64,000 bases of DNA from Oscillospiraceae bacterium (GTDB taxonomy: Bacteria; Bacillota; Clostridia; Oscillospirales; Ruminococcaceae). Positions within the stretch are counted from its first letter, which is position 1, and every line of letters starts with the position of its first letter. The position numbers were made by a program, and so were the translations under genes. Below, piece by piece: positions 288-52,002 of this stretch. A model generated the notes under the pieces. It saw only the letters and a program-made list of their open reading frames with translations. It searched no databases and was not told where the DNA came from. The stretch is from NCBI GenBank assembly GCA_012729855.1, contig JAAYCI010000004.1, positions 1 to 64,000 of the forward strand, written 5' to 3'.

Positions 288-430
288 AAAAACCGACCCC
301 CTGATAATACCACGCGCGGCATCTGCTTGTCAAGCAATGGGCAGCGGGTTTCACTGCCAAGCGCGAGATACCGCCGCTGGGCGGCGGCATGCGATAAACC
401 CACCAAATATGCAGATGGAATTATCGAAAA

Positions 431-506
431 TGGAGCGGCCAACGAGGCTCGAACTCGCTACCTCCACCTTGGCAAGGTGGCGCTCTACCAGATGAGCTAT
501 GGCCGC
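431..506 (-). tRNA. tRNA-Gly (GCC)
   Basis: On the minus strand the acceptor stem is GCGGCCA/TGGCCGC. The anticodon loop TTGCCAA (anticodon GCC) is closed by CCACC/GGTGG. The T-loop is GTTCGAG and CCA is encoded. It is first of the Gly-Val-Asp group. The spacers at 288-430 and 108-211 show no gene. Confidence 0.95.
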
Positions 507-589
507 ATACACGCCACGCCATTTGCAGCGCGGCGATATTAATTTTACATGATGTGCCACCTTTTGTCAAGGCTGTCGGCGGTAAATCA

Positions 590-1459
590 TTACTTAATTT
601 TCTGCGATATTCCGTTAATATCAAATTCATACACTTTGTTGCAAAAATGGCATTCCACCTGCACGGCGGGGTTTTCCTGCCGCATGGCTTCCAGTTCGTC
701 GGCGCCAAGGCTGGCCAGTATGTCCTGCGTACGTTCCCGGCTGCAGGTGCAGCGGTATTCAACCGTGCGTTTTTCCAGTATTTCCGGCCCCAGCCCTTTA
801 AGGGCAAGATGCACCATGTCTTCCGGGGTGCCGCCATTTTCCAGTAAATCGGTAACGGAGAGCATCTCCGCCACATTCTTTTCCACGGCGGTAATTTCCT
901 CTTCCAGCGCGCCCGGCATCAGCTGCAGCAAAAAGCCCCCGGCCCGGCGGATAGAAAGGTCGGCGTTTACCAGCACGCCCAGCGCGCATACGGTTGGTGT
1001 CTGCTCGCTGGCGGCGTAGTAGGCGGTGATATCCTCGGCAATCTCCCCGCTTACCAGCGGTGTTTGCCCGATATACGGCTCTTTCATCCCCAGGTCTTTC
1101 ATCACCGAAAGCGTGCCTTCATGGCCCACCGCGCCGCCCACATCCAGCTTACCGTCGGCGCGCAGCGGTATTTCCACCACATTGTTTCCAGCGTATCCGC
1201 GCACGTTGGCGTCACCGTCCGACACCGCCACCAGCACGCCTGCCGGCCCGCCGCCATCAATGCGCAATGTCAGGCTGTCCTGCGGGTTTTTCAGCCAGCT
1301 GCCCATCAGCGACGCCGCCGTAAGCAGGCGGCCCAGCCCCGCCGACACCACCGCGCTGGGCTGGTGCAGGCGTTCCATCTCCTTAACGACCTCGGTGGAG
1401 TCCAGCGCGCAAACCACGATGCCGCCACTCTCTGAAAGTGCACGTACCATATTATCCAT
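590..1459 (-). CDS. hslO: Hsp33 redox-regulated chaperone
   Basis: A 289-residue protein of normal Hsp33 length. Hsp33 is a cytosolic holdase that binds unfolding proteins once its zinc centre is oxidised. The C-terminal redox switch is visible as a CTC pair about 55 residues from the end and a CHFC pair about 20 from the end, the CXC...CXXC zinc ligands of the family. The start at 1459 has AAGGAA eight bases upstream. It is the last gene of an engB-methyltransferase-hslO run on the minus strand. Confidence 0.93.
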   Translation of the reverse strand: MDNMVRALSESGGIVVCALDSTEVVKEMERLHQPSAVVSAGLGRLLTAASLMGSWLKNPQDSLTLRIDGGGPAGVLVAVSDGDANVRGYAGNNVVEIPLRADGKLDVGGAVGHEGTLSVMKDLGMKEPYIGQTPLVSGEIAEDITAYYAASEQTPTVCALGVLVNADLSIRRAGGFLLQLMPGALEEEITAVEKNVAEMLSVTDLLENGGTPEDMVHLALKGLGPEILEKRTVEYRCTCSRERTQDILASLGADELEAMRQENPAVQVECHFCNKVYEFDINGISQKIK

Positions 1460-1501
1460 TGCTTATATTCCTTATATTATAAAGTTATTATTCAAATTGT
1501 T

Positions 1502-2236
1502 TTATATTTTTCTGGCTGTTACCAGCAGGCGCTGGCTGGTTGGCAGCACGGGGCCAAAACGCTCTCCATCACACTGCTCCAGTACTTTCAGCCCATTTTT
1601 TTGCAGAATTTCGGCCAATTTATCGGGCATGTGGGCATACTCGATGAACCGCTCGCGAAAAACCATCTGCGCCCTTTCATAGCCGGTTACCGATATGTGT
1701 GTCGCCTGCTGTTCAGGGTCGTACCGGTTCTCCCACACGCAGCGGGTCTGTGGCCCGGTCTCTATCTCAAACACGTTGTTTGCCAGCACATGGGCATGCT
1801 TGTGGGGGGTGTTCACGTCAAAAATGAAAACGCCGCCCTTTTCCATAAAAAGCGCCACACGCTCCACCGTTTCCGCCAGTGCTTTTTCATCCAGGTGGTT
1901 CAGCGTATCAAAGCTGGACACCGCCGCACGGATGGTGCCGTACAAATCCAGTTTTGCCAAATCCTGGCACAGCAGCAGGATATCCCCCCTGCCCTGCTCC
2001 GCCGCTTTTTCCCGGAAGACGCTCAGCATGTCGGGCGAGGCGTCCACGCCAATCATGTCATAGCCGTGGGCAGCCAGGCGCAGGCACAACTCGCCGGTGC
2101 CGCAGCCCAGGTCGGCCACAATGCCGTTCGGTACGCCATGCCGGGCCAACCGCGTGACCATCTCGTCCGCAAGGCGGTCGTAATCGGCCTCGGTATTCAG
2201 GCTATCATACCAATAGGCAAAATCCTGGTAGGCCAT
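1502..2236 (-). CDS. class I SAM-dependent methyltransferase
   Basis: A 244-residue protein with a Rossmann methyltransferase core. Motif I is VADLGCGTGELCLRLA near residue 42 and an acidic residue ends strand 2 in GVDASPDML. The substrate cannot be told from the sequence; small-molecule and protein targets are both possible. AAGGAG lies five bases before the ATG. It sits 26 bases after engB and 42 before hslO, so the three are probably co-transcribed. Confidence 0.82.
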   Translation of the reverse strand: MAYQDFAYWYDSLNTEADYDRLADEMVTRLARHGVPNGIVADLGCGTGELCLRLAAHGYDMIGVDASPDMLSVFREKAAEQGRGDILLLCQDLAKLDLYGTIRAAVSSFDTLNHLDEKALAETVERVALFMEKGGVFIFDVNTPHKHAHVLANNVFEIETGPQTRCVWENRYDPEQQATHISVTGYERAQMVFRERFIEYAHMPDKLAEILQKNGLKVLEQCDGERFGPVLPTSQRLLVTARKI

Positions 2237-2262
2237 GGGCGCTCCTTCGCTTGTCTGCCATC

Positions 2263-2901
2263 TTAATCCGCATCTGTGTTGGCCGCCTGTTCTTCTTCTA
2301 CCGTTTTCGGCGCTACACCCGCCTGCTGCATCGCGGCCTGCAATTCGGCGATTCCCAGTCCCTTTTCCGCACTGGTCAACACCACCTGCCGGCAGTCAAA
2401 TGGGGCTAAAATGCCGGTAAATTCCTCGATAATTCTGGCATATTGCGAGGGCTTAAACTTATCGGCCTTGGTCAGCACCCCTACAAAAGGTATCTGGTAG
2501 TGCGCCAGGTATTCCAGCATCTGCATGTCGTCTTTTGAGGGCGGATGCCGGCAGTCCAGCAGCTGCATCATCAGGCGAATGTCCCGCGCGCCGGCAAAGT
2601 AGCCGTTGATCAGCTCGTCCCAGCGGCGGCGCTCGGCGCCCGAGGTTTTGGCATAGCCATAGCCCGGCAGGTCCACCAGATAAGCCTCGCCCGCCCCATA
2701 GAAGTTGATGGTGGCCGTTTTGCCGGGCGTGCCGCTTACCCGGGCCAGCCGCTTGCGGTTGCACAGCTTGTTGATGAGCGAGGACTTGCCCACATTGGAG
2801 CGCCCCGCGAAAACAAACTCCGGCAGGCTGGAGGCCGGTAGCTGCCTGGCCAAACCATAGGCCGCGCCGAATGCCGCTTTATTGAAGTCCGGGCAATCCA
2901 T
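2263..2901 (-). CDS. engB: ribosome biogenesis GTPase EngB/YsxC
   Basis: A 212-residue single-domain GTPase needed for 50S subunit assembly in Gram-positives. G1 is GRSNVGKSS near residue 33, the G2 region is GTPGKTATINF, G3 is DLPGYG and G4 is TKADK. GGAGGGG lies five bases before the ATG. It follows lon, a position it also holds in Bacillus (clpX-lon-ysxC), which supports the assignment. Confidence 0.95.
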   Translation of the reverse strand: MDCPDFNKAAFGAAYGLARQLPASSLPEFVFAGRSNVGKSSLINKLCNRKRLARVSGTPGKTATINFYGAGEAYLVDLPGYGYAKTSGAERRRWDELINGYFAGARDIRLMMQLLDCRHPPSKDDMQMLEYLAHYQIPFVGVLTKADKFKPSQYARIIEEFTGILAPFDCRQVVLTSAEKGLGIAELQAAMQQAGVAPKTVEEEQAANTDAD

Positions 2902-3029
2902 GCGTTCCCCTCCATTTCCTTCGCTCGGTGTAAAAACCGCTTTACCATCATACCATCTATGCGTCTAAATTGCCACTTTGATTTTGGCCTGCGGTACGGT
3001 TGTTTATCTCCGCATGCCCACACATAACA

Positions 3030-3063
3030 GGGAATCGGGGCCACTGCAGCTTCCCCGATTCCC
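3030..3063 (-). terminator. hairpin downstream of lon
   Basis: An 11-bp perfect stem (GGGAATCGGGG/CCCCGATTCCC) lies 42 bases past the lon stop. No T-run follows on either strand, so it may be a 3'-end stabiliser or a weak terminator. The rest of 2902-3104 shows no gene. Confidence 0.5.
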
Positions 3064-3104
3064 ATTGCAGGGCCAAAGCCCCGCCAGGTTCAATTGGTTG
3101 TTAA

Positions 3105-5570
3105 TTATTGCGGCAGTTCTTTCCCTGCCTCTTCGGCCGGGGCTTTCACCGGGGGTTTGGGCGCGGTTTTGGTGCGTGGCCGGCTGCCTTGCCCTCCGCT
3201 CTTGCGCCTCTTGGGCCCGGCCGGCAGCATGGACACGGCAAAAGCCTCCTCCAAATTGCCCACCGGCACAAACTCAATGTGTTCCTTCACCTCGTCGTCC
3301 ACGTCGTACAGGTCAGACAGGTTGTCCTTCGGAATCAGCACCTGCTTCATGCCCTCGCGGTAAGCCGCCATGCTCTTTTCCTTCAGGCCGCCTATGGGCA
3401 GCACCAGGCCGTGCAGGGTGATTTCCCCGGTCATGGCCACGTCGGAGCGCACCGGCCGGCCGGACAGGCAGCTGAGCAGCGCCGTGGCCAGCGTAATACC
3501 GGCCGACGGGCCGTCCTTGGGCACGGCGCCCTCGGGCGCGTGGATGTGGATGTCGGCGTCCTTGAAGACGGTCGGGTCGAAGTCAAATTCGCCAGCCTTT
3601 GCCTTGGCGTAGGTAATGGCCAGGCGGGCGCTTTCCTTCATCACGTCGCCCAGAGAGCCGGTCAGCTCCAGCTTGCCGCTGCCGTGCTCGGTAATCTGCA
3701 CCTCGATGGGCAGTATCTCGCCGCCCACACTGGTCCAGGCCAGGCCGTTGGCAATGCCAATGGCGTTGGCTTTGTTGAAGAAGGACGGCTTCACCCGCTT
3801 GGGCCCCAGCAGCTGCTCCAGGTTCTGGGCGCTCACGGTCACCTTCTCCTTTTCGCCGGCGGCAATCGTCTTGGCGCATTTGCGCAGCACCTCGGTGATG
3901 GCACGCTCCAGGTTGCGCACGCCGGCCTCCTGGGTGTAGCTGTCTATCAGCGCGTACAGCGCGGTGTCGGTCAGCTTCACCTTGCCCTTCAGGCCATTCT
4001 TTACCAGCTGCTTGGGCAGCAGGTGCTTTTTGGCAATGTTGAACTTCTCCACCCGGGTGTAGCTGGACAGCTCAATCACATCCATACGGTCCAGCAGCGG
4101 CCGCGGAATGGTGCCCAGGTCGTTCGCCGTGGTGATGAAAAGAACGTCGCTCAGGTCGAACGGAATATCCAGGTAATGGTCTTTAAAGGTTTTGTTCTGC
4201 TCGGGGTCCAGCGCCTCCAGCAGCGCGGCGGCCGGATCTCCGCGAAAGTCGCTGGCCAGCTTGTCAATCTCATCCAGCAGCAGCAGCGGGTTGCGGCTTT
4301 TGGCGGTGTTTATGGCGCTGATGATCTTGCCGGGCATCGCCCCGATATAGGTGCGCCGGTGGCCGCGAATTTCGGCCTCGTCGCGCACACCGCCCAGGCT
4401 CATGCGGGCATACTTGCGGCCCAGCGTGTCGGCTATGGAGTGGGCGATGGATGTTTTGCCCACGCCCGGCGGGCCCACCAGGCAGATGATCTGGCTCTTC
4501 ACCTCGGGCGCCAGCTTGCGTACGCTCAGCAGCTCCAGAATACGCTCCTTCACCTTTTTCATACCATAATGGTCACGGTTCAGGGTGGCCTCCGCCTTTT
4601 TGATGTCCAGGTTGTCCACCGTCTCGGTGTTCCAGGGCAGCTCCACGCAGGTGTCCAGATAGGTGCGAATCACCGCCGCCTCCTGGCTGCTGCCCTGCAT
4701 GCGGGACAGCCGGTCGGCCTCCTTCAGCAGCTTTTCCTCAGCCTCCTGCGGCAGTTTCAGCTCCAATATCTTCTCGCGGTAACGCTCGGCCTCGCCGCGG
4801 GTGTCTTCGCTTTCATCCAGCTCCCCGGCAATGGCACGCATCTGCTCCCGCAGGTAGTAATCGCGCTGGTTTTTGTCCATCTGCTCGGATACCTTCTCCT
4901 GGATATCCTTCTCGATGGTCATGATCTTGCTCTCGTTTTGCAGCAGGTTCAGTATCTTTTCCAGGCGTTCCAGCAGCGATGTGGTAGAAAGCACATCCTG
5001 CTTGTCGGTGTACTTGAACATCAGGTTGGCGGGGATATACTCCGACAGGAACTGGGCGTTGTCCCCGGTGAGGATGGTGAACACCACGTCCTTGGGCAGG
5101 CGGGGGTTCAGCGTCAAAAACTTTTCAAAGGTCTCCTTGATGCTGCGCAGCAGTGCTTCGCCGTGGGCGGCGTCCTGCGCACGGATAGGCCGCACGGGCG
5201 CGCTGCGTGTGGTGGCCAGCAAAAAGCTGCCGCTGCTCTCCAGCGTTACCAGCTTGGCGCGGTACCGCCCCTCCACAATCACCTTCACCAAGTCGTCCGA
5301 GATGCGCAGCAGCTGCTTTACCTCGGCCACCACGCCATAGTCATACAGGTCGGCAATCTCGGGGCTGTCCACGTCCATGTCTTTCTGGGTCACCAAAAAA
5401 ACGCTGTTGCCATTGGTCATAGCCCATTCTATTGCGGCAATGGATTTCGCCCGGCCCACCTCAAAATGGATGATGTTGCCCGGGAAAACCACCAGCCCGC
5501 GCAGGGCTATTGCCGGCAGGCGCACGGTCTCGCTGCCGCCTTTTAACTTAACTTTTACTTTTTCGGCCAT
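3105..5570 (-). CDS. lon: ATP-dependent protease La (Lon)
   Basis: An 821-residue soluble AAA+ serine protease that degrades misfolded and regulatory proteins. In order it shows the N-terminal substrate domain ([15 protein letters not shown]), a coiled-coil middle, Walker [10 protein letters not shown], Walker B LLLDEIDK, and the C-terminal Ser-Lys protease domain with the nucleophile in KDGPSAGIT and the dyad lysine in PIGGLKEK. The frame is open 22 codons further upstream. The start at 5570 is chosen because GGGAG precedes it and the product then begins MAEKVKV. The C-terminus carries a Lys/Pro-rich tail of about 35 residues. Confidence 0.96.
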
Positions 5571-46010: not shown

Positions 46011-47249
46011 CTACAAGCGGGGCTCGGCGCCTTGCGATGCTTCAGAAGTGGCAACTGCCTGTACCGCTTCCACGGACGCAGCCGGCGCCCCTTTTTTCAG
46101 TTTGTCGGGGTTGGGAATCAGGTAGGCAATAACAAGGGCGAGCACCGCCACGCCTGTGATGGTGTACATGGCGGCCGGCAGGCCGTAGTTGTCCCCCACC
46201 CAGCCAATAACCGGCGCCAGCATGCCCCCGATGCTGACCGTAAGGCCCAGCATGATGCCCGAGGAAAGGCCCACCCGGTTGGGCAAAAAACCCTGCCCCA
46301 GCACAATCATGGTGCTGTGCGCCCCGCTCATGGCGAACGCGATGGGAACAAGCATGAAGGTGGCAAAATAGACGTTGTTGCTAACGGAAAAGATGAGCAG
46401 CAGTGGCACCAGGGCCGTGAAAGCAATGCGGATGATGCGGTTGAAGCCAAAGCGGTCGGCCAGGCGCCCGCCCAGCAGGGTGGCCACCGCCCCAATAATG
46501 GCGTACAGCGTCAGGCTGCCGCTGGCCGCCACCTCGGTTTGCGCCAGCACACCAATGAAATACAGCGGAATAAAGGTGGTGAGGCCGTAGCCCATGATGG
46601 AGCGGAAGGTGATGCCCGTTGACACCAACGCGAAAGCCGGCCAGTTGTCCTTCTGCGCCTGCCCTGCTGTTTGGTTTTTTTTGGCGTTGTGGGCAGAGAA
46701 CTCCCGCAGGGTTTTTATTCTGGCAAAGATAACCAGTGCCATGATGACGGCTGGAACCAGAAAGATGACCGTGCCCCTCAGGCCCCAGGCCGTAAGCGCC
46801 ACAGAAGCCAGGATGGGGCCTATGGAAAAGCCAATATTGCCGCCAACGGCAAAGATGCTCATGCCCGTGCCTTTTTTCTCGCCCGCCACCACATTGGCAA
46901 TCTTGCCGCCCTCGGGGTGGAAAAGGGCAATGCCAATGCCGGAGAGCATCACGGCGAAAAAGATGGCCCAGTAGTTGTCCAAAAAGCCGATCATGGCCAG
47001 CCCGCCGCCAGCCAGCAGCACGCCCAGGCCCATCAGCCAGGGCCAGGAGACTTTGTCGCCAAAATAGCCGCAGAGGGGCTGCACCAGGGAGGAAACCGAG
47101 CTGGCCGCAAACACCAGCCCCGCCGCCGACGCGTAGCTGATGTTGTTGTTTGCCACCAGAAACGGCAGGATGGCCGGCAGCGCGCCCTGGTTGATGTCGG
47201 TGCAAATATGCCCAAACATGGTCAGGTACCGGTAACGGCCTATTTTCAT
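46011..47249 (-). CDS. MFS transporter, fosmidomycin-resistance (Fsr) type
   Basis: A 412-residue membrane protein with about 12 segments. The N-terminus RYRYLTMFGHICTDINQGALPA resembles the Fsr signature (FGHxxxDxxQGxLPA) of fosmidomycin exporters. The GHxxAD-like and PEGGKIAN motifs also fit. It is preceded by an XRE-cupin regulator on the same strand (41-base gap), which probably controls it. Substrate unknown. Confidence 0.85.
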   Translation of the reverse strand: MKIGRYRYLTMFGHICTDINQGALPAILPFLVANNNISYASAAGLVFAASSVSSLVQPLCGYFGDKVSWPWLMGLGVLLAGGGLAMIGFLDNYWAIFFAVMLSGIGIALFHPEGGKIANVVAGEKKGTGMSIFAVGGNIGFSIGPILASVALTAWGLRGTVIFLVPAVIMALVIFARIKTLREFSAHNAKKNQTAGQAQKDNWPAFALVSTGITFRSIMGYGLTTFIPLYFIGVLAQTEVAASGSLTLYAIIGAVATLLGGRLADRFGFNRIIRIAFTALVPLLLIFSVSNNVYFATFMLVPIAFAMSGAHSTMIVLGQGFLPNRVGLSSGIMLGLTVSIGGMLAPVIGWVGDNYGLPAAMYTITGVAVLALVIAYLIPNPDKLKKGAPAASVEAVQAVATSEASQGAEPRL

Positions 47250-47290
47250 GGTGAACTCCCCCCGTCTTGGTAGAAACCCGCAGTTGCTCC

Positions 47291-47854
47291 CTATCGGTTT
47301 ATCCTGGACTCAATGGTCAAAAGCTCCGCCGCCGCGTCGGCGTTATTCACATACCGGTGCTTGCGGCGGGGCGGAATGCGCAGGGTATCGCCCTCGCAGA
47401 TAATAAAATGGGTGGCCTCGAAGTGGACGGTTACGCTGCCGCACAGCACAAACACGATCTCCTCGTTCGCATGGCTGTGAAACGCGCCGTTATAGGTCTG
47501 GGCATGCGCCTCACAGCGCACCAGCGTCATGCGCAGGCCGGCATTCATGCTGGCAGGCGTCAGCAGGTTATAAAAAATGTAGCGCTCATCGGGGTTGTAG
47601 GTTTGGGGGCGGTCCTTTTTGCGCAAAATCAGCGCGGCCTCGTCCTCCTCCTCGGTAAGCAGCTCGGGAACAGACAGCTCCATGGCGGCGGCCAGGGCGC
47701 ACAGCACGCTAAGGCTCGGGTTGGCAAGGTCCCGTTCCATCTGGCTGATAAGCGCCGTACTCAGGCCGCTCTTTTCCGCCAGCGCCCTGATGGTGAGGTT
47801 ATGCGCCTTACGGTAGCCGGCAATCTTGCCGCCAATATTTACAGTGCTCATCAT
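47291..47854 (-). CDS. XRE-family regulator with cupin domain
   Basis: A 187-residue regulator. The helix-turn-helix is at about 12-65 (AEKSGLSTALISQMERD), and the C-terminal cupin at about 115-185 (FHSHANEEIVFVL, GDTLRIPPRRKHRY). This class often senses a small molecule and controls the neighbouring exporter or catabolic gene, here the MFS gene. An AT-rich palindrome (47910-47922) upstream may be its operator. Confidence 0.9.
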   Translation of the reverse strand: MMSTVNIGGKIAGYRKAHNLTIRALAEKSGLSTALISQMERDLANPSLSVLCALAAAMELSVPELLTEEEDEAALILRKKDRPQTYNPDERYIFYNLLTPASMNAGLRMTLVRCEAHAQTYNGAFHSHANEEIVFVLCGSVTVHFEATHFIICEGDTLRIPPRRKHRYVNNADAAAELLTIESRINR

Positions 47855-47909
47855 CTCACCCCATGGTGTTCAATGTAGCAGATGCAGGCGCAAAAGTAAA
47901 TATCATAAA

Positions 47910-47922
47910 ATAATTTAATTAT
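47910..47922. promoter_or_regulatory. possible operator of XRE-MFS operon
   Basis: ATAATTTAATTAT, a 13-base palindrome in an AT-rich patch 56 bases upstream of the XRE start. Candidate -35 and -10 boxes overlap it but are poor. Confidence 0.35.
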
Positions 47923-48026
47923 AGTTAACACCCGGGTGCGCCTACCGCCGCCAGATGGCACTGTGCGAACTCATAAAAAGCACTTTTACAGGGCGCTTTC
48001 CTGCGGGAAGCCTCATGCTGAAGCCA

Positions 48027-48065
48027 TTTGGCTCCCCCGGTAAAACCGGGGGGTGGGGAGCCAAA
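48027..48065. repeat. GC-rich hairpin TTTGGCTCCCC
   Basis: TTTGGCTCCCC and its complement enclose an inner CCGG/CCGG pairing. It lies in the 293-base gap 47855-48147 with no gene. It resembles short dispersed hairpins common in clostridial genomes, though only one copy is seen here. Confidence 0.45.
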
Positions 48066-48080
48066 GCACACAAACAGAGA

Positions 48081-48110
48081 AAAAGACACCCGAAAAACAG
48101 GGTGTCTTTT
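48081..48110. terminator. terminator after Big_2/leucine-rich surface protein gene
   Basis: AAAAGACACCC/GGGTGTCTTTT with an 8-base loop. A T-run follows on the minus strand, 37 bases past the stop of the gene at 48148. Confidence 0.82.
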
Positions 48111-48147
48111 ATCATCCCGACAGACAATCATTGTCGATGCACAGTTT

Positions 48148-49599
48148 TTATTCCACCGTCACTGTGTACTTTGCCGTTTTCCCGCCCGCTTTAACCGTGA
48201 TAACAGCGGTGCCCTTTTTCTTGGCAATCAACAGGCCGCCTTTGTCAACCGTGACAACGCTTTTGTTGTTGGACGAGAACGTCACCTGGACGGCGGTTGC
48301 GGAAGTTGACTGGTACTTGCCGTCAACCTTTTTGCGCTTGCCCACTTTCATCGAGCTTGGCACGTTTGCGGTGACGGATTTCACCCTGACTGTTTTCGCG
48401 GTTTTCTTGAGAACCGTCACTTTCAGCTTATCGGTTTTGCCGTTGGCCGCTTTCGCAACGATGGTTGTTATCCCGGGTGTTTTCGCGGTAATCTTGCCAG
48501 CTTGTGAAACCGTCGCCACATCGGGGTTTGTGCTGGTGTAAGTGATTTTAGACGCCTTGCCGGTGCTCGCGTACGCGGTTGCCGGGATGACAATCGACTT
48601 GCCGGCGCCTATTCTGACAGCGGTTTGCGGGAACTGCGTGGAGGGGGTGACTTTGCTTGCCGTGGAAGCCGGTGTGTTTTCCACAACAGAAACGGTAAAA
48701 TTCTTATATTTGCGTGTGTTTATTTGGGCAGAAATCGGCTCCCAAGGGGTTGTAAACTTTACGGTTGAAGGGGTCATCTTCCAAGATTTGAATGTTTTGA
48801 CCGAAAAGTAGCTGACTGAAAGCGTGCCGGGCACGCCGGCTTCACGGCCATTCACATGATGATACGTGAAGCGTATTTTATCATATTGGGGGTGCTTGAA
48901 AGTGATGGTGTTTCCGTCTTCCAAAATGAGTTTATTGGTAATGTTTTGGAGAGAGCCCCACAAATGAAAACCATAATATGAATAGGAAAGATTGTTGCAT
49001 CCCTTTATATTCACAGACTCAAAAGTGTTTACGTTTTTGCCCCACGATGTGTTGTAGAAATTTCTATCAACAGACACAAGAGACACACTGGGTATCCCCG
49101 TAAGGTCCAGGTCGCGTATTTTATTGCCAGACGCATCGAACGACTCGATTTTTGGGAGATTTTGCAAATGAATTTCAGTAATACCAACATCATACAACGC
49201 CAGCGTACGCAGTTCGGAAAGACCCGAAAGATATAATGGCGCATTGAGATTGCCGGCGTTTTCTTTTGTAAGCTGAATATCTGTAAGCCGAATCTCTCGA
49301 GGAGAATAATCTCCGCTTTCGCCCGCAGAGGAGAAATATTCGCCTTCAAACGTGGCAAAAGTCCAGCTCCATGGTTCATTCAAAGCATAACGGGACATCA
49401 ATGCCGGGTGCTTTTGAATCAAAGTGTTAATAACTTGCACGTCAGCAGAATTGTACTCCGCCAATGGCGGGGGCTTAAGCGGTGGTTCTGCTGCAAACAC
49501 CGGCACGCTTGCAAACGATATGAGCATGACCACGGCGAGCAAACTGGCGCACATTTTCTGAATGGTTTTCTTCGTAGCCGATATCCCGTAATTCCTCAT
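48148..49599 (-). CDS. secreted leucine-rich and Big_2 surface protein
   Basis: A 483-residue protein with a signal peptide (about 1-36). A leucine-rich-repeat-like stretch follows (about 115-190: LSELRTLALYDVGI, LPKIESFDASGNKI), then a beta domain, then two bacterial Ig-like (Big_2) domains (about 310-483: SKITYTSTNPDVATVSQAGK, VTFSSNNKSVVTVDKGG). No sortase motif or membrane anchor is seen. GGAGG is nine bases before the ATG. Likely cell-surface binding; partner unknown. Confidence 0.82.
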   Translation of the reverse strand: MRNYGISATKKTIQKMCASLLAVVMLISFASVPVFAAEPPLKPPPLAEYNSADVQVINTLIQKHPALMSRYALNEPWSWTFATFEGEYFSSAGESGDYSPREIRLTDIQLTKENAGNLNAPLYLSGLSELRTLALYDVGITEIHLQNLPKIESFDASGNKIRDLDLTGIPSVSLVSVDRNFYNTSWGKNVNTFESVNIKGCNNLSYSYYGFHLWGSLQNITNKLILEDGNTITFKHPQYDKIRFTYHHVNGREAGVPGTLSVSYFSVKTFKSWKMTPSTVKFTTPWEPISAQINTRKYKNFTVSVVENTPASTASKVTPSTQFPQTAVRIGAGKSIVIPATAYASTGKASKITYTSTNPDVATVSQAGKITAKTPGITTIVAKAANGKTDKLKVTVLKKTAKTVRVKSVTANVPSSMKVGKRKKVDGKYQSTSATAVQVTFSSNNKSVVTVDKGGLLIAKKKGTAVITVKAGGKTAKYTVTVE

Positions 49600-49642
49600 A
49601 CCAATTTACCTCCAGCGCATTACCACAATTTGAACCGAAACC

Positions 49643-49670
49643 ATTATAACGTTTGCTTACCAAATTGCAA
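49643..49670 (-). promoter_or_regulatory. promoter of the Big_2 surface protein gene
   Basis: On the minus strand TTGCAA (49665-49670), a 16-base spacer, TATAAT (49643-49648), 44 bases before the ATG. Confidence 0.72.
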
Positions 49671-49757
49671 CCACAAATACAAAGCCAAAGCATGCGGGGT
49701 ACTTTTGTGTGGTTTGTGGGTGACGCGTTTTCCGGTGTCATTAAAAGTCAAATATGG

Positions 49758-49898
49758 GTAAAAGTGCTTACGTACAGCGGCGATACCTTCACCATTACAA
49801 ACAGCCACTCGCCAGAGCCAACCCGCTGAACCATCGTAAAATCTTGGGAAGACAACGGCAACCAGAAAGGTAACCGCCCGGAATCTATACAGGTTCAG
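49758..49898 (+). pseudogene. Cna-B domain relic
   Basis: Plus-strand translation gives YSGDTFTITNSHSPEP, a stop (TGA at 49827), then IVKSWEDNGNQKGNRPESI and QVQ. This is the junction of two Cna-B (collagen-binding protein B-type) repeats: the TNSH end of one and the V-K-W-D-N-Q-G-R-P start of the next. It has no start codon and an internal stop. It is a leftover of a large surface adhesin gene, abutting the Rep relic. Family reading is by eye. Confidence 0.6.
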
Positions 49899-50647
49899 CC
49901 GGTCTCCACCAGCACCCAGTGAATATTCACCGAAAATACCGTAAATCCCATGCCATCCCCGGGTGGCAAAGCAACTGGGTAGCCGTCCAGGTAGTTAAGC
50001 ATGTCACTAATTTTTATGTGCTTGTTCCCACTTCGAAATTCTTCAAACACAATCACATCTTGGCCAGAATAACTATCAAATGGATGATTATAGTCCGTCA
50101 CCCTATAAACTTTGTCATATCCATATTCTTCCATAACTCCACGTGTTTTTCCGGTGCCGGTGGCCCCGAAAATATAAGTGACACGTAAATCACGCCAAGT
50201 GGTTCTAAACTTGTTCATCATCAAGTCTTGGCGGATTCGGTCAAGGCTAGATGAATATCTCATGTATTCGGCACTTTCTTCATAAATCTCTGCATTGCTT
50301 TTCCCATTCAGCAGCATCTTCTTTAGTAGGTGCAAGTCCGATCTTGCACCGCGCCCAGCGGGGAGTTTGCCATATTGATACTGTTTGCCCTCAATGCGTG
50401 TGTCCTCTTTGGGATCGCCAGCCCATTTCCCTGTCTTGAACACATAATCGCGCGCTTGCTCTGGTGTGCCAAGGCGCTTCTCTACATGGGAATTTCCAAG
50501 TAGTTCAGCAACAGAGCGCCCATAAACACTATTTTTCAAAGCAATATATAAATGATAATGGGGCGTTTCTTCTTTCAGCCCTATTTCCATGCTATAGCAA
50601 AAGTAAACAATATTGGGGAAGATTTCTAAGACATATGTTGAATCCGA
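49895..50647 (-). pseudogene. CRESS-type Rep (HUH endonuclease + SF3 helicase), truncated
   Basis: About 250 codons open from 50647; an ATG lies at 50590. Numbered from that ATG, the HUH motif is PHYHLYI (H11, H13), the nicking Tyr motif is YVFK (Y49, K52), Walker A is GATGTGKT (142-149) and Walker B DVIVFEEF (178-185). A degenerate motif C (FSVNIHW) comes near the end. This is the rolling-circle Rep layout of circoviruses and of bacterial pCRESS plasmids. Motif 1 and the first 40 or so residues are missing, and the C-terminus stops soon after motif C. An integrase relic faces it. Confidence 0.8.
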
Positions 50648-50930
50648 CTATATTTTTACATGGGAAGATGGAACAGTGATTATCCCCGGCTATGCTTCAC
50701 ACAAAATGAAAAAGATTGTAGCACAAAACAACTTGAAAAAGGTCACATTGCATCAACTTCGACACTCTTGCGCTAGTATTCTGATTTCTGAATTTGGCTT
50801 TACATTGATGGATGTAAAAGATTGGCTGGGGCATTCTGATATTAAGATGACCGGCAACCTATATGGCCATTTGGAATACGGGCGCAAGATAAACATGGCA
50901 AAAACATTTGATAAAAAATTGGGGGCATAA
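50613..50930 (+). pseudogene. C-terminal fragment of a tyrosine recombinase (integrase)
   Basis: 105 residues holding the second half of a phage-type integrase: the Box II motif TLHQLRHSCASIL (H47, R50, H51), the LGHS motif (H74) and the nucleophile Y84 in TGNLYGHLEY. The N-terminal arm and core-binding domains and the first catalytic arginine are absent. The homology begins near 50645, exactly where the Rep frame ends. It runs toward tRNA-Thr, the usual placement of an integrase beside its attachment site. Confidence 0.85.
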
Positions 50931-50955
50931 CTTTTTTAGACCGAGAAACCAACAA

Positions 50956-51007
50956 ATAAAAAATCCACTCCGCATATCGAATAATACGACATACATAAGT
51001 GGATTTT
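50956..51007 (-). terminator. terminator of tRNA-Thr
   Basis: On the minus strand AAAATCCACT/AGTGGATTTT (10-bp stem, 28-base loop) followed by TTATTTG, just past the tRNA 3' end. Confidence 0.6.
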
Positions 51008-51009
51008 CG

Positions 51010-51085
51010 TGGAGCTGGTGGACGGACTTGAACCCCCGACCTGCTGATTACAAATCAGCTGCTCTACCAACTGAGCTACACCAGC
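51010..51085 (-). tRNA. tRNA-Thr (UGU)
   Basis: On the minus strand the acceptor stem is GCTGGTG/CACCAGC. The anticodon loop TTTGTAA (anticodon TGT) is closed by CTGAT/ATCAG. The T-loop is GTTCAAG and CCA is encoded. Its 3' end faces the integrase relic, so it is the likely attachment site of the lost element. Confidence 0.95.
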
Positions 51086-51226
51086 GGGTTTTGTTTGGTA
51101 AAATGACTATTCTGTCCCGAAATGTTCAATTATACAGTTTCGCGCCTCTTATCTTATCAATTATTCCCTATTTTGTAAAGATATACTTTTAATAGGTAAA
51201 AACAAAAATAAAACCCAAATAAATAT

Positions 51227-51252
51227 GCCCGAGGCACCTGTTTGCCTCGGGC
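51227..51252. terminator. terminator after ABC-2 permease gene
   Basis: GCCCGAGGCA/TGCCTCGGGC, loop of six, followed on the minus strand by ATATTTATTT. It lies 28 bases past the permease stop. Confidence 0.7.
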
Positions 51253-51279
51253 GGTCACACACCCATGTTTTTTTAAATA

Positions 51280-52002
51280 TCAACCCTTTACCAGGCAGGC
51301 CCACGCGCTCAGGCCAAGGCCGGCCAGCCCCATCACGATGCGAGACACCAGATACTGCGCCGGCACTGCAAACGGGATGACACCCTCCCGCAAAGCGGCG
51401 CTTTGGGCCCCGGCCAAAATGGCGTTGCCAAACAGGTCTACCGCCGGCGGCATGGAAAACCCTGCAAAAGCCGCGAAAAACAGCAGCGCAAGCAGCAGAT
51501 AAACCAGGTTATGGTGCACTTTTCCCAGCCACAGCCCCACGCCCATATAGAAAAACAGCGCCGGCAACACCACCAGCACCGCCAGCGGCCACATCCAGCC
51601 CAGGCCTGTGTACTGGAACTGTATAACACAGAACAGCGCATAGGCCAGCAGCACCAGCAATGCCGCGCACAAAAATGCCACGGCAATGGTGCCCAGCTTG
51701 ATGCCCTTGCGCACATAGCCGGGCGTTGGCGTGGCCGAGGCGAGCGTCTCCACCGCTTTTTCGCGCGGGGCTAATTGGCGGGAGACAAAAAACAGCATGG
51801 CTGCACACAAAAACGGCAGCAGCCGGCACAGGTAAGCCAAAAAGCTCCAGGGCGAAAACGGGGCGGTGTCGGCATAGCCGAACATCACCTCTGTTTTAAG
51901 CAGGTAGGCGGCATACACCAGCGTGACGGCGGTGATGAAGATAAACGGCTTGGACAAAGCAACCCGCCGCAGCTCGTAGCGGAATATTTTGGCTCTATCC
52001 AC
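51280..52002 (-). CDS. ABC-2-type membrane protein
   Basis: A 240-residue protein with about six membrane segments and a basic cytosolic start (RAKIFRYELRRVALSKPF), typical of ABC-2 permease subunits. It overlaps the upstream M1-peptidase/permease gene by eight bases. With that gene and the ATPase it forms a three-gene ABC system of unknown cargo. Confidence 0.75.
   Translation of the reverse strand: MDRAKIFRYELRRVALSKPFIFITAVTLVYAAYLLKTEVMFGYADTAPFSPWSFLAYLCRLLPFLCAAMLFFVSRQLAPREKAVETLASATPTPGYVRKGIKLGTIAVAFLCAALLVLLAYALFCVIQFQYTGLGWMWPLAVLVVLPALFFYMGVGLWLGKVHHNLVYLLLALLFFAAFAGFSMPPAVDLFGNAILAGAQSAALREGVIPFAVPAQYLVSRIVMGLAGLGLSAWACLVKG

Follow-up and report, generated by a model that had tools for sequence, protein, structure and literature searches.

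Beside the tRNA-Thr(UGU) gene of a gut-type Clostridia genome lies a relic locus of two broken genes, one for a CRESS-type Rep and one for a tyrosine integrase, which together are probably the no longer functional remains of a small pCRESS-type integrative rolling-circle element. Because its Rep matches p4M RepA, the locus is placed as a relic of a known kind, the integrated pCRESS-type plasmid; this class of element is already published, and what is new here is one more decayed copy. Since no second direct repeat was found, the locus is given the status of a relic, and its membership in the class is drawn from its relatives. The features of the locus within the 64,000-nucleotide stretch of DNA that was analysed (the window) are listed here with the evidence for each.

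49964..50632, minus strand: Rep remnant (PF02407, PF00910, alignment with relatives, tblastn limits, motif scan)
49895..49963, minus strand: non-Rep tail of the Rep frame (homology of nearly all relatives stops at 49964-49967)
50626..50632, no strand: Rep/integrase head-to-head junction (Rep homology from 50632/50629, integrase homology from 50628)
50628..50930, plus strand: integrase remnant, last ~100 residues (PF00589, identity to the L104 and L149 integrases, tree)
51010..51085, minus strand: tRNA-Thr(UGU), intact, presumed attachment site (ARAGORN)
49891..49930, plus strand: weak tRNA-3'-end-like sequence, inverted, suggestive only as a possible att remnant (local alignment)

The frame 49895-50647 on the minus strand is open for 250 codons, and in 2000 base shuffles of this stretch it never stayed open. 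The first-pass annotation had assigned the whole of it to the Rep; the frame is open as described, but Rep homology covers only 49964-50632 in tblastn, reaching 50641 at most with a profile, and is cut at both ends. About 223 codons remain, from the central part of an HUH endonuclease-SF3 helicase of CRESS type. The frame matches Viral_Rep (PF02407) above the cut-off (E 3.7e-7), RNA_helicase/SF3 (PF00910) just under it (E 5.9e-4), solved CRESS Reps in the PDB (best E 5e-6) and full-length bacterial Reps at 39-51% identity. The HUH, YxxK and SF3 Walker motifs were recovered: motif scan and an alignment of the window Rep with 16 relatives place HUH motif II at frame residue 30 as HYH and YxxK motif III in DYVFK, with YVFK at frame residue 68, both conserved among the aligned sequences, and the motif scan found the SF3 Walker A (GATGTGKT) and Walker B (VIVFEEF) kept. 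Motif I (UUTU-like; RKWQLTINNP in the relatives) is absent because of truncation, the homology beginning past it, and neither motif C (SN) nor the conserved CRY...RRI C-terminal part was found in the Rep by alignment and motif scan. After LDGYPVALP the sequence departs from that of the relatives, with the C-terminal ~80 residues lost, and the stretch of the frame from 49963 to 49895 is unlike the Rep of any relative, a second Rep breakpoint lying at ~49964. With motif I gone from one end, and motif C plus the C-terminal part from the other, the Rep is cut at both ends and, judged from its sequence, should no longer work. No further copy of the window Rep occurs in its own genome, and PHROGs and NCBIfam gave no family for it. 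That the truncated Rep (ATG 50590, 231 codons, HUH, YxxK and Walker motifs kept) stays open as a domesticated dominant-negative protein, blocking incoming CRESS-Rep plasmids or filamentous phages, has a next to negligible probability.

On the plus strand, 50613-50930 encodes a C-terminal tyrosine-integrase fragment (PF00589, E 1.1e-12), with integrase homology from 50628, which bears out the earlier description of such a fragment by the 3' end of tRNA-Thr. The remnant is 55% identical to the integrase of L104 and 50.5% to that of L149, and the active-site HxxR, H and Y are retained. Because the N-terminal domain and part of the catalytic domain are missing, the integrase should no longer be functional either. 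The 3' end of tRNA-Thr(UGU) points towards the integrase stop at a distance of 79 bp. A second copy of this 3' end was found in the window neither at up to 3 mismatches nor by repeat search, and the inverted look-alike at 49891-49930 has a local alignment score of 14, which was matched by 12 of 300 shuffles. Left of 49964 there were no convincing remnants of Xis, the integrase N-terminus, FtsK or Zot, and the left flank 49600-49990 had no DNA match across 120 relatives. The first-pass annotation had proposed searching related genomes for an intact integrase-Rep element at tRNA-Thr(UGU) and comparing empty sites; no such element was found among the relatives, nor was an empty site, the four congeners (63-78% complete) having the tRNA with other flanking genes and no synteny here. 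Adjoining the scar, 48148-49599 on the minus strand encodes a secreted-looking protein with Big_2 Ig-like domains, and the region 47200-50000, which spans this gene, had no DNA match in the four congeners. In a genome of the same genus (G248), another full-length tyrosine integrase (L064:516-1702, PF00589 3e-30) lies beside tRNA-Thr(UGU); the site may be a repeated target. The own genome also carries a full-length integrase of the same subfamily as the remnant beside tRNA-Leu(UAA) (L172:5700-7031, contig C60), with no CRESS Rep there.

The only PLSDB match of the window Rep was p4M RepA from Bifidobacterium (NC_003527, tblastn E 4e-18), in agreement with the CRESS/pCRESS type proposed at first reading, and no grouping with unrelated helicases was seen. 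p4M is the name-giver of the p4M-like cluster, which is pCRESS1-3, and 97.5% of the Reps of groups other than pCRESS7 and 9 are in elements site-specifically integrated in bacterial chromosomes (PMC6668415, Kazlauskas et al. 2019). The YLxH signature of motif III is absent in the window Rep, which has YVFK instead and belongs to the p4M-like/pCRESS1-3 cluster. A FtsK gene stands directly before RepA in p4M and likewise in L026, L028, L018 and L149. The window thus resembles the integrated pCRESS plasmids (PMC6668415) in its HUH-SF3 Rep without YLxH and in the match to p4M RepA, and its relatives share with them the site-specific integration with direct repeats and the FtsK-Rep pair of p4M; unlike these plasmids the window holds fragments of Rep and integrase, head to head, with no second att site.

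Relatives of the Rep were found at E <= 1e-8 in 28 of 397 genomes of the same family and at E <= 1e-15 in 30 of 394 genomes of the order, and in about 9-19 kb around most Rep loci the genes for Rep, integrase, Xis, FtsK and Zot were located by HMMs made for the purpose, and tRNAs and tRNA repeats were mapped as well. In relatives from the same family and order the Rep adjoins Xis and an integrase, and direct repeats of a tRNA 3' end flank several of them, seven Rep-bearing loci in total (L030, L104, L020, L026, L167, L102 and L037). Five of them are given here.

L030 (G223 C6): tRNA-Thr(CGU), 48 bp perfect repeat, spacing 3278 bp
L104 (G272 C7): tRNA-Ser(UGA), 55 bp perfect repeat, 3711 bp
L020: tRNA-Ala(GGC), 53 bp repeat, 6086 bp
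L026: tRNA-Leu(CAG), 7706 bp
L102: tRNA-Pro repeats, 11.1-kb element, integrase 418-1701 (minus strand), Rep 2195-3241 (plus strand)

The gene content of L030 is only a ribbon-helix-helix-like gene, Rep, Xis and integrase. These bounding repeats give good support to the view that elements of this class integrate site-specifically into tRNA genes, including tRNA-Thr (not the UGU isoacceptor itself). The earlier suggestion of a replicon integrated at the tRNA stands in so far as relatives are Rep-Xis-Int elements at tRNA 3' ends, one of them at tRNA-Thr(CGU), but none was found at UGU. The locus L149 (G751 C26:1-5300), at tRNA-Pro(GGG), has the best-scoring integrase together with a 47% identical Rep in colinear order, and the orientation of its tRNA-Pro to the integrase matches that of tRNA-Thr to the integrase in the window. 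L149, L030 and L104 are the closest combined homologues of Rep and integrase and have, like the window, the integrase C-terminus adjoining a tRNA 3' end; unlike the window they are intact, colinear and at other tRNA genes. A useful by-product is thereby a set of minimal Rep-Xis-Int elements, 3.3-3.7 kb long and from the same family and order, whose att repeats in tRNA genes are exact.

In the window, Rep codon ~40 meets integrase codon ~309 head to head with no intervening DNA (within about 5 bp). A junction near 50645 had been predicted; it does exist, and its position is 50626-50632, about 15 bp away. The Rep had also been said to face the integrase, but the two genes point apart, 5' stump to 5' stump. 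Among 32 relatives with Rep and integrase close together (some loci being near copies, and L156, L157 and L160 being omitted as distant or unclear), the order is colinear from Rep to integrase in 28, the exceptions being L102 and L144 (divergent), L100 (convergent) and L169 (integrase before Rep). Colinear order holds in all six Rep elements whose integrases come closest to the window fragment (L149, L104, L030, L020, L033 and L167). Because deletion cannot make two head-to-head stumps from colinear genes, an inversion or the rarer divergent ancestor is needed, and the single deletion of the first-pass annotation does not agree with this gene order. It seems that inversion, and not only deletion, scrambled the element, with deletion after or along with the inversion, because the other junction is missing, as is all of the element from Rep codon ~260 on.

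The two remnants with their limits, the tRNA, and intact relatives with their gene order are what was observed; from these we infer that the element integrated at this tRNA, that an inversion took place, and in which order things happened. In the intact ancestor, Rep was probably followed by a small HTH_17 excisionase-like gene and then by a tyrosine integrase, all colinear, and the C-terminus of the integrase lay by the attachment site. As judged from the relatives, the integrase would have inserted the circular element by recombination at the 3' end of tRNA-Thr(UGU) and restored the tRNA, and from what is known of the family, the Rep would have nicked an origin and unwound the DNA so that the excised circle could replicate by the rolling-circle mode. 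Later the stretch between Rep codon ~40 and integrase codon ~309 would have been inverted, which produced the head-to-head junction at ~50630, while a deletion with its end at ~49964 would have removed the N and C termini of the Rep, Xis, the integrase N-terminus, any cargo and the distal att. The lesson would be that scars at tRNA genes may form by inversion and not by deletion alone. A second head-to-head Rep was seen at a contig end in a relative (L033/L068, G245 C26:70-1177), where the N-terminal part is inverted relative to the C-terminal part, by inversion or assembly artefact.

Inversion is not strictly needed, because the divergent order occurs in L102, with integrase (minus) and Rep (plus) within its tRNA-Pro-bounded element, and in L144, with the same arrangement and the Rep most identical to that of the window (51%). 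From such an ancestor, two deletions that took both 5' halves and the C-terminal side of the Rep would give the locus, which corresponds to the version of the first-pass annotation; this is rather unlikely, about three times less likely than the inversion account, as the integrases of L102 and L144 are outside the subfamily of the window (30% identity, or no match) and the six elements with the closest integrases are all colinear. An assembly artefact, the true locus being a colinear element or remnant, would fit with a genome in 113 contigs, with a junction known from this one fragmented assembly and with the similar Rep at the contig end of G245 C26; it is very improbable given that the junction is deep inside a 160.6-kb contig, far from the ends, that the Rep has a second, unrelated breakpoint at 49964 and that the genome has no second Rep copy.

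The integrase subfamily has a wide distribution (116 of 397 genomes of the family at E <= 1e-60), and a CRESS Rep was within the 1.5 kb flanks of only 4 of the 30 best integrase loci, so adjacency of Rep and integrase is by itself weak evidence of a common source. The GC content is 43.5% for the Rep and 38.3% for the integrase, a gap of 5.2 points, which is as large in only 1 of 13 intact pairs and there in the opposite direction. Together with the head-to-head order and the different integrase at tRNA-Thr(UGU) in L064, these points agree with two different elements at the same tRNA, each leaving one fragment, that were later fused. This is nevertheless improbable, as the pieces abut with nothing between them and a Rep accompanies the closest integrases: in a tree built from the C-terminal 100 integrase residues, where Rep-linked rows were partly chosen for being so and branch support is modest, each of the five nearest rows by path comes from a CRESS-Rep element, L104 being the sister (90/81). 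Because of these five neighbours, a single element as the source of both pieces is favoured, if not proven.

The Rep family is also present in circular records annotated Inoviridae ('bajarodino') with a Zot/pI gene, and in the IMG/VR element L144, which has Zot, a coat-like small membrane protein and the highest Rep identity to the window; the IMG/VR scan gave no relative with the window Rep alone and three with the alignment. Zot was also found beside a Rep of the same family in L029 and L037. An SF3-containing inovirus Rep family is already recorded as iPF_00203 (PMC6813254, Roux et al. 2019). The Inoviridae records share the Rep family with the window at 39-51% identity, and iPF_00203 is likened by description; unlike these inoviruses the window has no pI/Zot, coat or other phage gene, and no inovirus ORF was convincingly matched in 49400-51300 apart from Rep-related frames. 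In a 57-row Rep tree, Zot-bearing and FtsK-bearing elements interleave, with at least three changes of the Zot label forced by well-supported branches. Such records and the interleaving speak for an alternative in which the source of the Rep was an inovirus (filamentous phage) prophage instead of a capsid-less plasmid, and the scar is what remains of that prophage. This origin is quite improbable, since the window has no Zot or coat remnant, its integrase subfamily accompanies Rep-Xis elements showing no Zot (L030, L104, L020, L149 and L167) and the supported sister of its Rep, L169, is without Zot.

Because the Zot and FtsK labels interleave, the Rep tree suggests repeated exchange between plasmids and filamentous phages of Clostridia. 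Since one Rep family serves capsid-less plasmids as well as inovirus-like elements with Zot, traffic between such plasmids and phages can be put to the test in Clostridia. The loci concerned, in integrative plasmids that are minimal or carry FtsK and in the Zot-bearing elements, include L021-L025, L029, L037, L144, L146, L163, L166 and L170. Two further observations were made on the intact relatives. TTTCTAACA blocks are repeated near both ends of L030 (8411-8431 and 11409-11429) and L104 (6698-6719 and 10120-10141) and may be arm-type integrase sites. The tRNA-Ala element L020 has an AAA ATPase and RloB pair (L020:632-2889; PADLOC AbiLi 8e-85, AbiLii 2e-19), and CRESS-Rep integrative elements can thus carry anti-phage cargo.
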